Shown in pieces: positions 9,789-13,790 of a DNA stretch of 20,407 bases. Position 1 is the first letter of the stretch. The number at the start of each line of letters is the position of its first letter. Source of the stretch: a virus. The stretch lies in IMG/VR virus record IMGVR_UViG_3300022198_000284, positions 1-20,407 of that record; one strand, 5' to 3'. The notes under the pieces are model-generated. The model was not told the origin of the DNA. It saw only the letters and a list, made by a program, of their open reading frames with translations, and searched no databases. The position numbers were made by a program, and so were the translations under genes.

Positions 9789-10989
9789 TTATGATCCGTT
9801 AAGATCGTAGACAACTGCGTGTGCCTTAGGCGCGGTAGGCTTGAGCGCCCACTCAGTGACCAGGTGCGACGTTTTTGCGTCACCGTCCTGGCTAAGTTCC
9901 TGCTCAAGGAAGTTACGTCCGTTCAGTGTGCAGATTGACACGAAGTCTGGGTCAATCAAGAACACCCGGTCGTTACCCAACAAGCGTGATGGAACGGCCT
10001 CAACAGTACCGAAGTCGGTCAGGAAAACACTGGTAGACCCGACATATGTGACTTCTTTAGCGGCAGTCATGTTTACGTCGTTTGACACCAGATTGCCTGA
10101 AGCAGACAGGTCTGAGAAGTTCGCACGGTTGGTCGCTGACGCGATCATCAGGCGAGGGTTTCCACCGTCTGTCCACGCATCCTGCATCCCATCTTCGATG
10201 AGCGCCAGGGTTAATGCGCGAGCCGTTCCTGACGTGATTGTTGTTGTGCCGTCGGCACCAACAGCAAACGCACCAGTTGCGCCAACTGAACCGTTTGACA
10301 TCCAGCAGGTCAGTGAAGCTGACTTGCGTGGGTCTGAACCGTCGCGTGCAACGTCTGTGTCACCGATTGCTTTTTCGATGTCCCGGCGAAGCTCCAGGGC
10401 CTTCAAGACCTTCTGGTAGTTGTGTTCCCGCTCTCTCCCGGCGCTGTCGACTGCATCCAAAGTCCCGGATGTAGCAAACACCTTCTTTGAGATTTGGTGG
10501 TAGTTACCAATCCGTGCAGTTGGTGTTGCCGCAGCAGTTGCGGTGGTTGCACCTTCGTTGTGGTAGTTCGTTGCCGCATTTTCTTCAACTAAGATCGCTA
10601 ATCTTAATCCGTCTTTTTACAGACTGCTCATGCTTTCACATGAGATGAGACTATATCATCACCCCGATTTGGGGTGCTGTGCGCTTCCACTCGCTTGAGT
10701 GTACTCCCCGAAGGGATAGTCGTTGCACCTTCCTATTTCTAGGCTTGGCTCAGGATTGCCATATCTTTCGACTTAGGGTTTCCCTGAGTTCACACAGTTT
10801 ATCCCGCGCTGGTCAGTGTATAGTTAACGCGGCGGTCAGCTCCTGAACTTGCCATTCGACGAAAATGCCGTTTGAGGTTTCTTTTTTCACATTGGAAAAA
10901 ATTGGTGTTTCTGCCGGATCAATCCGGTAGATGATGTCGGCGAGTTGTTCTTTCTCACCGACCGCGTTTTGGGTCGTAAAGACAGCCAT
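9789..10989 (-). CDS. Major capsid protein, split by a group I intron
   Basis: Exon 1 is 10989-10827, starting at an ATG with a strong GAAGGAG site. It gives MAVFTTQNAVGEKEQ, then RIDPAETPIFSNVKKETSNG and WQVQELTAA. Exon 2 is 10576-9789, giving ATNYHNEG, RIGNYHQISKKVFATSGTLD, REREHNYQKVLKALELRRD, NGRNFLEQELSQDGDAKTSH and a C-terminal KPTAPKAHAVVYDLNGS. The joined product is 316 aa, reading QELTAA-S-ATNYHNEG across the junction. This matches the SU10-like / DUF5309-type capsid family as I know it, in which an acidic EG follows about seven residues after the N-terminal block. An unspliced ribosome stops at TGA 10815-10813 after 58 codons. Exon 2 alone has an open frame back to GTG 10481 but would lack the N-terminal arm. 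The scaffold gene lies immediately upstream (18 nt). Confidence 0.9.
10577..10826 (-). ncRNA. Group I self-splicing intron (IA-like, no ORF)
   Basis: About 250 nt, minus strand. Hand-drawn helices: P1, exon CCGCGU (10832-10827) with GCGCGG (10809-10804), giving a U-G pair at the splice site; P3 UGUGUG (10796-10791) with CGCACA (10683-10678); P4 CUCAGG (10788-10783) with CCUGAG (10754-10749); P6a CCUA-GAAA-UAGG (10743-10732); P7 GACUA (10721-10717) with UAGUC (10653-10649); P7.1 UCCC-UUCG-GGGA (10716-10705); P7.2 CACUC/GAGUG (10701-10688); P8 CACCCC/GGGGUG (10676-10660); P9 CUCAUG/CAUGAG (10644-10627); P9.1 GUCU/AGAC; P9.2 8 bp (10608-10588). The core contains the familiar GGCAAUCCUGAGCCAAGC and GGUGCAACGACUA strings and the GAUAUAGUC of P7. 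Two extra hairpins between P7 and P3' are a subgroup IA trait. The 3' end is less certain: G10577 is favoured, G10589 is possible. Confidence 0.93.
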
Positions 10990-11007: not shown

Positions 11008-12021
11008 TTACCTGCCCATTAGAAATTCAACAGCGGCATCAACCGTTCCAGCGCTTTCAAAACGCTTTTTCGCTTGTTGCCGAGAACGACTAGCAACTTC
11101 TCGCTTGGTCTTTGGACGTCCTGCCTTAGCCATCTTTGGTGCCTGCCTTGCACGTTTCTTGGCGTCGGGTTTCTTCGACTGAAGATTGTCCCATTTCCAC
11201 GCCTTGTACAAAAGCTCTATAGCCCTAGCGTCTGAGGCATTTGCAATTTCCTCTTCACTAAAGCCAACGCGGCGTTGTGCATACTTAATGACTTCCTGAC
11301 GCTCAAATTCTCTTGTCTCGTCATTCTTCCATTCCGGTATGCGGTCGAGCATTTCGGCACGTTGATTTTGCAGGTGCTGTTTTAGTCTCTGCTCCTGCTC
11401 GTATGCCTGCTCTTGTGCGATGCGATACCTTTCGGTTTCAACCTGCTTTTGCTGTTCCTTGTACTGGTCGTACTCGGTCTTGGCTAAAAACAAGTCACGC
11501 TCGCTCATTGTTTCGGCTAATGCTCTCCAGTCAGGTTCTTGTTCGACTGTCTGACGGATTTGGGCGCTCAACAGATCAAGTTGCTGCGCGTAAGCGTCGC
11601 GGAGTTGCTTTGTTTGAGCCGCCTCAGCCTCAAAGGCTTTGCGCTGCTCGGCAAGTTCCATCGACTTCTTAGTAAAAGACCGCTGGCGCTGATAACCGTT
11701 TCGCAGCTCGTCTAGGTCTACCTCTACCTCTTCGCCGTCTATTTTGACTTTGTAGGTTTGCTGAGGCTCCTCGTCGTCTGCGTCGTATTCATCATCGTCG
11801 TAGTCTTCTTCGCCGTCATCGGCATCATCATCCACAAATTCCTCATCCGGCGTCTCATAGACGTTATCGGGTTCAGACTGTGCTGCCTCTGCCTCAGGCT
11901 GTTGAGACCGATCTTCGGTCTCAGGCCGCTCTTCTGTTGCATTATCCACTGGAGGATTGCTCAGAAGGCTAATTGCATCATTCATTGAAATAGTGCCGGT
12001 TCCTGCTGGATTGTCGGACAT
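11008..12021 (-). CDS. Capsid scaffolding protein (337 aa)
   Basis: The start ATG 12021 has AAGGTGAT upstream. Residues 46-86 are extremely acidic (VDDDADDGEEDYDDDEYD). Residues 88-112 give YKVKIDGEEVEVDLDELRNG, a small beta-hairpin motif frequent at this place in phage scaffold proteins. Residues 112-240 are a long Gln/Glu/Lys/Arg coiled coil (EQRKAFEAEAAQTKQLRDAY, then QEQAYEQEQRLKQHLQNQR). The C-terminus is basic (KKPDAKKRARQAPKMAKAGR), as expected for the part that contacts the coat protein, and ends TVDAAVEFLMGR. It lies directly upstream of the capsid gene, the standard order. Acidic head, coiled-coil centre and basic helical tail are the classic scaffold layout. No protease motif is visible. 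Confidence 0.85.
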   Translation of the reverse strand: MSDNPAGTGTISMNDAISLLSNPPVDNATEERPETEDRSQQPEAEAAQSEPDNVYETPDEEFVDDDADDGEEDYDDDEYDADDEEPQQTYKVKIDGEEVEVDLDELRNGYQRQRSFTKKSMELAEQRKAFEAEAAQTKQLRDAYAQQLDLLSAQIRQTVEQEPDWRALAETMSERDLFLAKTEYDQYKEQQKQVETERYRIAQEQAYEQEQRLKQHLQNQRAEMLDRIPEWKNDETREFERQEVIKYAQRRVGFSEEEIANASDARAIELLYKAWKWDNLQSKKPDAKKRARQAPKMAKAGRPKTKREVASRSRQQAKKRFESAGTVDAAVEFLMGR

Positions 12022-12325: not shown

Positions 12326-13396
12326 TTACGAAAGTAGTGTGTACCCCGACAGTTGTGGTGGGCGCTGGAAATATTGCGGGTATGTCGCGCCCTGACGCCG
12401 GAAATTAAGGTTGGCTGCCGCAAAGTCCTGAGGCGTGCCAAAGCCTGCGCCATATTGCTGCTGGAACTGCGGCAGGCCAGTAGGTGCCACGTCGAGCAAG
12501 CCCATACGCGCATACGCGCCATCTGCCGGCGGCACGACTGAGCCTACATCGCCGGGAGCGCCTGCGCCGCCGCGTGTGTCTAAACGGCAAGCGTTTAGCT
12601 GCTCGTCAAAGATGTAGCCAGCGTCGCATTGGCCGGTGACAGGATTTACTGGTTTGACAGTTTGTGTGCCGTCGTCTCTGTCGCCTGCGTTTATGCTGTC
12701 CCCTCTGGGGTCTACACCCACAATTACATTTCCAAACTCATCAGTAATTGCCATAATACCTGATGTCGTTCTGCCAAATGGGTCTCTTCCTGTTGGCCCG
12801 CGTAAATTGCGAGACTGCAACGAAGCTAAAGCAGATGGGTCTAAGCCGGAGCCGATTTCTCTTGGTGTAATGCCGATAGAGCTAAGGAGACCCTGCGGAT
12901 ATCCTGCTGCTGTTGCCGCGAGATTTCTGACATTTTGCAGGGCAATATAGCCAGCGACAGGGTTATAAGACATCATTGCCTTGGCCTTAGCTTCACGCCT
13001 AGAAAGGTCTTGAAGGTCTGCATTTAATTGCTTTAGCGCGTCAATCTCTGACAGTTGACCGATACCCATAATAACGTCTCGGGACGCTTGAGTGCCGGTA
13101 TCAAATCCACGCGACTGAGTAATTTGTTCCTGTGTTGGGTCAGGAGTGCCAAAATCTTTTGCGGCAGCTCTGCTGATTGTGTCGTAGCTGTCGTTGCCAC
13201 CATTACCAGTAGGGCCTGACGTCGACGCTACGCTGTTGGTGATGGAATAATCCTCTTCAGAAAAATCCAAATTTCCAGAATATGTGGGTCGGCTATCAGC
13301 ACCGCTATCAGTGTCCTCACTAGAGCCAAAGCAGAACATCTGGCGCTGCATATACTCGCCGTAGTCAAAACCATCAATTAGATCGCGTGAACGCAT
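12326..13396 (-). CDS. Virion-type protein with CxxGYxFD cysteine motif (356 aa)
   Basis: ATG 13396 overlaps the end of the HlyC-like gene by 23 nt but has a good GGAAGG site upstream. Met16 and Met20 (MFCFGSSED) are alternative starts; many relatives begin near such an MCFG motif. Residues 20-100 are Ser/Gly/Asp/Thr-rich and look disordered. A helical stretch follows (LSEIDALKQLNADLQDLSRR, then YNPVAGYIALQNVRN). Later come GIMAITDEFGNVIVGVDPRG and a small cysteine element QCDAGYIFDEQLNACRLDT, and the C-terminus is Pro/Gln/Gly-rich (FQQQYGAGFGTPQDFAAANL). The position between portal and scaffold suggests a head or ejected protein. I do not know its function. Confidence 0.68.
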   Translation of the reverse strand: MRSRDLIDGFDYGEYMQRQMFCFGSSEDTDSGADSRPTYSGNLDFSEEDYSITNSVASTSGPTGNGGNDSYDTISRAAAKDFGTPDPTQEQITQSRGFDTGTQASRDVIMGIGQLSEIDALKQLNADLQDLSRREAKAKAMMSYNPVAGYIALQNVRNLAATAAGYPQGLLSSIGITPREIGSGLDPSALASLQSRNLRGPTGRDPFGRTTSGIMAITDEFGNVIVGVDPRGDSINAGDRDDGTQTVKPVNPVTGQCDAGYIFDEQLNACRLDTRGGAGAPGDVGSVVPPADGAYARMGLLDVAPTGLPQFQQQYGAGFGTPQDFAAANLNFRRQGATYPQYFQRPPQLSGYTLLS

Positions 13397-13790
13397 AACC
13401 TGACCTTCCTTTCAATGATCTCAACCATTGACCTTTAATTTTGTCGCCATACCTTTTGCCAAGTTCATCCCTGACATATTTAACCCAGCTCGCCTTTAGT
13501 CCAAATGGCGAGACGATGTCTGGAATAAACAGGTTGTCGCCAGTCTTCCATTCATCGAAACCTATTGAGCGCTCGCCAGCCACAAGCTGCTTTACAGCCT
13601 CGTCGCCGACAAACGCGTAAGAGAAAAACGCCACCGGCTTGTCGTTTTCCCTTATCAAAAAATACTGCCCCTTTTCGATGGGCTGTAAGAAAAACCGCTT
13701 TAGTGCCACCATTCTCCAATTATTATAATAATCGAAAAAGCTGGCTAAATATACCACCTCACTAAATACGCGATTAGCCTGCGATCCCAT
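13374..13790 (-). CDS. HlyC-like (toxin-activating lysine acyltransferase family) protein
   Basis: A 138 aa protein starting by TAATG overlap with the portal stop. Compared from memory with HlyC, it aligns without gaps from NNW (23-25) to GQY (41-43), which corresponds to HlyC RNW...NQY. It then follows the family: KPVAFFSYAF for YPVAYCSWAN, EWKTGDNLFIPDIVSPFG for DWTSGDRKWFIDWIAPFG, and WVKYVRDEL for LYKYMRKKF. Asp91 falls on the catalytic Asp92 of HlyC. The position of catalytic His23 is Tyr22 here, so activity by the known mechanism is doubtful. HlyC enzymes transfer a fatty acyl group from acyl-ACP to lysines of RTX toxins; no RTX protein is present here. It may modify a virion or host protein, or be a GNAT-fold structural derivative. 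Confidence 0.72.
   Translation of the reverse strand: MGSQANRVFSEVVYLASFFDYYNNWRMVALKRFFLQPIEKGQYFLIRENDKPVAFFSYAFVGDEAVKQLVAGERSIGFDEWKTGDNLFIPDIVSPFGLKASWVKYVRDELGKRYGDKIKGQWLRSLKGRSGYAFTRSN

Follow-up and report, generated by a model that had tools for sequence, protein, structure and literature searches.

A split major capsid gene

The question raised by this locus is whether the 250 nt that break the major capsid reading frame of a phage are an intron that is removed from its message and, if so, how such an insert came to reside in that gene. The window is the whole stretch of DNA analysed here, 20,407 nt of the IMG/VR virus record IMGVR_UViG_3300022198_000284. The features concerned are listed below in the order of transcription.

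11008..12021 (minus strand), head scaffolding protein gene, directly upstream of the capsid gene; PHROG 3927, E 6e-53
10827..10989 (minus strand), capsid exon 1, an open frame with its ATG at 10989; 54 codons plus 1 nt, ending ...GCC GCG T
10577..10826 (minus strand), group I intron of 250 nt without ORF and with a terminal G; from RF00028 and the empty-site alleles
9789..10576 (minus strand), capsid exon 2, from CGGCAACG... through the stop codon; SU10_MCP, spliced product 316 aa

The interrupted gene (10989-9789, minus strand) encodes an SU10-type major capsid protein. Excision of 10826-10577 leaves an open frame of 316 aa, the length given in the preliminary description and also that of the intronless alleles, with the residues ELTAASATNYHNEG across the exon junction. 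The identification of the host gene as a capsid gene was borne out as well. A splice version of 320 aa, with 4 extra junction residues, matched PF17236 (SU10 major capsid protein, SU10_MCP; Pfam) over its full length (residues 5-317 of 320, E 1.5e-68) and PHROG 1328, 'major head protein', and a profile of the intronless homologues matched the solved capsid proteins 9ny2 (E 1e-51) and 7z45. Portal, scaffold and SU10 adaptor genes are among the neighbours of the capsid gene. A search of bacterial genomes with the capsid protein, aimed at the host, found no relative.

The phage structural operon also contains, just downstream of the portal gene, a gene for a 138-aa protein that matches the HlyC/RTX toxin acyltransferase family (13374-13790, minus strand; PF02794, E 2e-22). 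A toxin gene was not seen nearby.

Both parts of the capsid gene have kept their protein sequence. Relative to the intronless allele L001, exon 1 displayed 6 synonymous and 0 non-synonymous codon differences, and over five intronless alleles (L001, L003, L005, L006 and L008) the ranges were 6-9 synonymous versus 0-1 non-synonymous in exon 1 and 44-77 versus 4-6 in exon 2. These counts indicate that the spliced capsid protein is under strong purifying selection in both exons. With so few non-synonymous differences in either, the exons are still selected as a single protein, and a capsid protein that starts inside exon 2 is therefore unsupported.

Identity and boundaries of the intron

The only Rfam match within the window was the group I intron model RF00028, which scored 93.9 bits (cut-off 50 bits; E 2.2e-23) and covered all 253 model positions (10930-10627, minus strand). 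Nine intronless alleles from IMG/VR (L001-L009; 89-93% DNA and 96-97% protein identity) run uninterrupted and in frame across the site. They fix the boundaries exactly at the interval 10577-10826 that had been proposed, and place the 3′ end at ...GAAAATG|CGG, with a G as the last base of the intron. An alternative 3′ end at 10589, giving a 238-nt intron and a 320-aa protein, was ruled out since the intronless alleles are 316 aa long. Neither strand of the intron contains an ORF of 70 aa or longer.

RNA fold and guide

The pairing elements of the intron and its in-frame stop are located as follows.

10827..10832 (minus strand), P1 exon strand CCGCGU with the U at the splice site; partner strand GCGCGG, giving U-G at the cleavage site
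10813..10815 (minus strand), in-frame TGA at intron nt 12-14; stops translation of unspliced transcripts ahead of the ribozyme core
10804..10809 (minus strand), internal guide sequence GCGCGG; 6 bp with exon 1
10717..10721 (minus strand), 5′ strand of P7, GACUA (the G-binding helix); invariant in four intron families
10660..10676 (minus strand), P8 hairpin CACCCC/GGGGUG; from the free fold and the alignment
10649..10653 (minus strand), 3′ strand of P7, UAGUC; invariant

Free folding gave P1, P3, P4, P6a, P8 and P9 together with two hairpins between P7 and P3, at an energy (z = -3.7) that none of 200 shuffled sequences equalled. Two hairpins in this position are typical of subgroup IA. P10 is weak in this intron (2 bp by inspection). 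The preliminary description had proposed the P1 pairing CCGCGU/GCGCGG with its U-G at the splice site, core strings typical of group I, and pairing of P3, P4, P6a, P7 and P8. The P1 and all the quoted strings are present, and all five helices are paired in an alignment across intron sites, four of them (P3, P4, P6a and P8) also in the free fold.

The covariation alignment comprised introns of four sites and was small (seven sequences); the introns at capsid nt 279 and 335, described below, were left out because their P3 alignment was off by one column. Standard pairs occupied 94.8% of the cells at 36 core pairs, and 11 pairs were altered on both sides, compared with 30-41% paired when the partners were slid by 1-3 columns as a control. 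The covariation is located in P3, P4, P5, P6a and P8, and P7 is invariant. The group I assignment is thus supported by the covariance model, the covarying structure, the empty sites and the P1 and terminal-G rules, and may be regarded as secure from the seven-sequence covariation and the Rfam score taken together.

Proposed splicing

By group I biochemistry, the capsid transcript would splice itself with a guanosine cofactor. The guanosine would attack after the U of exon 1, and the freed exon would then attack after the terminal G, joining T to CG, whereby a serine codon is rebuilt and the full-length capsid protein is restored. The in-frame stop at intron nt 12-14 lies ahead of P3, which begins at intron nt 30, and since it precedes the core it would keep ribosomes from entering and unfolding the ribozyme. 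A translation stop ahead of the core was found at all six intron sites detected in capsid genes of this group.

Six intron sites in related capsid genes

Searches of IMG/VR revealed capsid introns at six sites of the coding sequence, listed here with intron length and P1 (exon strand/guide).

nt 68, 210 nt, P1 ACCGCAU/GUGCGGU
nt 163 (the window), 250 nt, P1 CCGCGU/GCGCGG
nt 260, 266 nt, P1 AGGU/GCCU, a match of only 4 bp
nt 279, 283 nt, P1 GGAACU/GGUUCC
nt 322, 251-252 nt, P1 UUGCGU/GCGCAA
nt 335, 284-287 nt, P1 GGUGCU/GGCACC

At each site the exon ends in U, the intron ends in G and the guide is matched to its own site, and RF00028 scored representatives of all six above the cut-off. The sites (nt 68-335) all lie within the first 36% of the capsid gene, several of them at conserved residues; no intron was seen beyond nt 335 in either the full-length or the neighbour-anchored capsid searches. 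Exactly one RF00028 match was found in each of the 14 carrier genomes tested (14/14) and none in the 11 intronless relatives (0/11).

Full-length capsid searches favour unsplit genes and rank split ones low, and the introns were therefore counted in less biased samples drawn through neighbouring genes. An intron was present in 18 of 78 complete capsid genes anchored on the scaffold gene and in 13 of 60 anchored downstream. About a fifth of the capsid genes are occupied, a figure that applies within this phage group only, since the two samples overlap and consist of near relatives of the window.

One capsid gene (L124 / L435) carries two group I introns, at nt 68 and nt 260, both of which were scored by Rfam in L124. 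L120 likewise has a normal intron at site 68 and a second insert (roughly 489-773 in the oriented gene), in which the 5′ end of the site 279 intron is joined to the 3′ end of the site 335 intron and 57 nt of exon are missing. Joining its flanks would give a stop, and it was therefore treated as an assembly chimera or a recombination between two introns and not counted as a seventh site.

Two large-phage contigs, L084 (180,796 bases) and L094 (256,898 bases), were found to contain a related group I intron in two copies each. In addition, several HNH endonucleases and one GIY-YIG endonuclease are encoded on the L084 contig.

Spread between phages and probable relocation between sites

The window intron recurred in the capsid allele L090 with 249 of 250 nt identical, where the exons are only 81.6% identical, and it was also found in a separate contig (L055/L089). 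Between L090 and the window, about 65 nt around the site are 100% identical and identity drops beyond. The carriers at site 163 share CGGCAACGA directly after the intron, compared with none of 140 non-carriers. The same narrow halo of high identity flanks sites 68 and 335, where the choice of target could also cause it. Presence and absence of introns are scattered among close relatives in a tree built from the exon downstream of all the intron sites. On this tree the 21 carriers at site 68 require 15 changes, compared with a mean of 20 and a minimum of 17 after shuffling, so that they are only mildly clustered. Taken together, the alignments and the tree indicate that the introns pass horizontally from one related phage to another, recombination around the insertion being the most likely route.

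Introns at different sites are in two cases more alike than the genes that carry them. The introns at 163 (window) and 322 share 87-88% identity, against 67-68% for their exons, and the pair at 279 and 335 shares 91-93%, against 70-75% for the exons. The guide changes with the site in both pairs, GCGCGG (163) versus GCGCAA (322) and GGUUCC (279) versus GGCACC (335). Closely related introns at differing sites in diverged exons imply that one lineage came to occupy two sites, and that this happened twice. The pattern fits horizontal spread plus relocation within the capsid gene, and suggests inserts that move around within one essential gene.

Competing explanations

We put the probability at about 0.95 that the major capsid gene in the window, from a podovirus-like phage, carries a small, endonuclease-free group I intron, that this intron is spliced as inferred above and that it is evolutionarily mobile. 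A defective or degenerate intron that does not splice, leaving the capsid gene broken or its product initiated within exon 2, is very unlikely. A 230-aa frame with a GTG start is indeed present in exon 2, and the case for splicing is drawn from sequence. Against this stand the intact core helices, purifying selection on exon 1 that resembles that on exon 2, the nearly unchanged intron (249/250) in a second capsid allele and its recurrence in the further contig L055/L089.

The spliced, mobile intron is thus the preferred reading, and the manner of its movement has three possible accounts: homing driven by a trans-acting nuclease, reverse splicing, or introns acquired separately from an outside pool. 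A homing endonuclease supplied by a free-standing gene of a co-infecting phage or of the host would drive both spread and relocation, and would leave short tracts of high identity beside the insertions, as gene conversion predicts, and a scattered distribution such as that at site 68. However, the introns contain no endonuclease ORF, searches for HNH_3, HNH, GIY-YIG and LAGLIDADG_3 domains found none in 14 related viral contigs and phage C72C1 (GenBank OQ984150), several of these records being fragmentary, and those window proteins that were compared with Pfam included no endonuclease family; we consider this account tentative. Of comparable standing, and likewise short of an even chance, is the independent acquisition of the 163/322 and 279/335 introns from unsampled donors that reside in other genes. 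Introns of the same broad family do interrupt DNA polymerase and further genes in many phages (about 70-80% identity), but the closest full-length relative of the window intron in annotated phages is the capsid intron of C72C1 (87%), the matches of the 335 intron in such phages are all short, and the 279 and 335 introns are much alike. A capsid-gene hot spot is a rather unlikely third account, in which freed nuclease-free introns would reverse-splice into sites of the abundant capsid message chosen by the guide and be copied to DNA, after which the guide would adapt. A search for RVT_1 (reverse transcriptase) in the related genomes gave no match and hence no candidate enzyme for the copying step; the nuclease and RVT_1 searches hit only the unrelated 180-kb contig G015. 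Ectopic spread by reverse splicing has been reviewed as being without direct experimental evidence, its best circumstantial support coming from rRNA genes (PMC3984707).

Significance and comparison with known systems

The larger interest lies in the family pattern of six sites in one essential late gene, with about a fifth of the alleles occupied and the guides rewritten in two pairs of closely related introns; the multi-site, guide-rewriting pattern would surprise specialists. Close relatives with an empty site, with one insertion or with two make the set a natural experiment in a protein gene of phages. Relocation at the RNA level, should it prove true, would provide evidence from nature for RNA-based intron transposition in such a gene. 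The case is also a warning for environmental phage catalogues, where an intron may divide a capsid gene and lead to its misannotation, as happened in the C72C1 record.

The window intron is textbook in type, and its host gene is unusual yet precedented. The preliminary description was right to call a capsid gene an unusual host, but the location is not unprecedented. In the mycobacteriophage LittleE the major capsid gene contains an intron, most likely of group I, whose splicing was proven by RT-PCR and N-terminal protein sequencing, and the lactococcal phage Tuc2009 is cited as a further capsid case (PMC3706429). The LittleE intron differs from that of the window in its length (about 820 nt), in a LAGLIDADG-like ORF on the other strand and in belonging to an unrelated phage.

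The major head gene intron of C72C1 is closer, residing in the same gene with a group I core and 87% identity and likewise lacking a homing endonuclease gene. It differs in position and guide, located at nt 322 with the guide GCGCAA and the exon strand UUGCGU, whereas the window has nt 163 and GCGCGG. In the public C72C1 record (L081; OQ984150 8530-9731) the intron went unrecognised: the capsid gene is annotated as two separate 'major head protein' genes, and small hypothetical ORFs are assigned within the intron and close to it.

With the T4 td and Twort-type introns the window intron shares the P3-P9 core, the U-G at the 5′ site, the terminal G and the two P7-P3 hairpins. The best-studied of these have an endonuclease ORF and reside in genes of nucleotide metabolism, whereas the window intron is without an endonuclease ORF. 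A literature search, excluding most subscription papers, found no report of multiple intron sites in one phage capsid gene. The nearest parallel to the set as a whole is in fungal rDNA, where related group I introns likewise occupy different sites of one gene and are thought to have spread by reverse splicing (PMC1299323); the fungal introns are in rRNA genes, whereas the phage set is in a protein gene.
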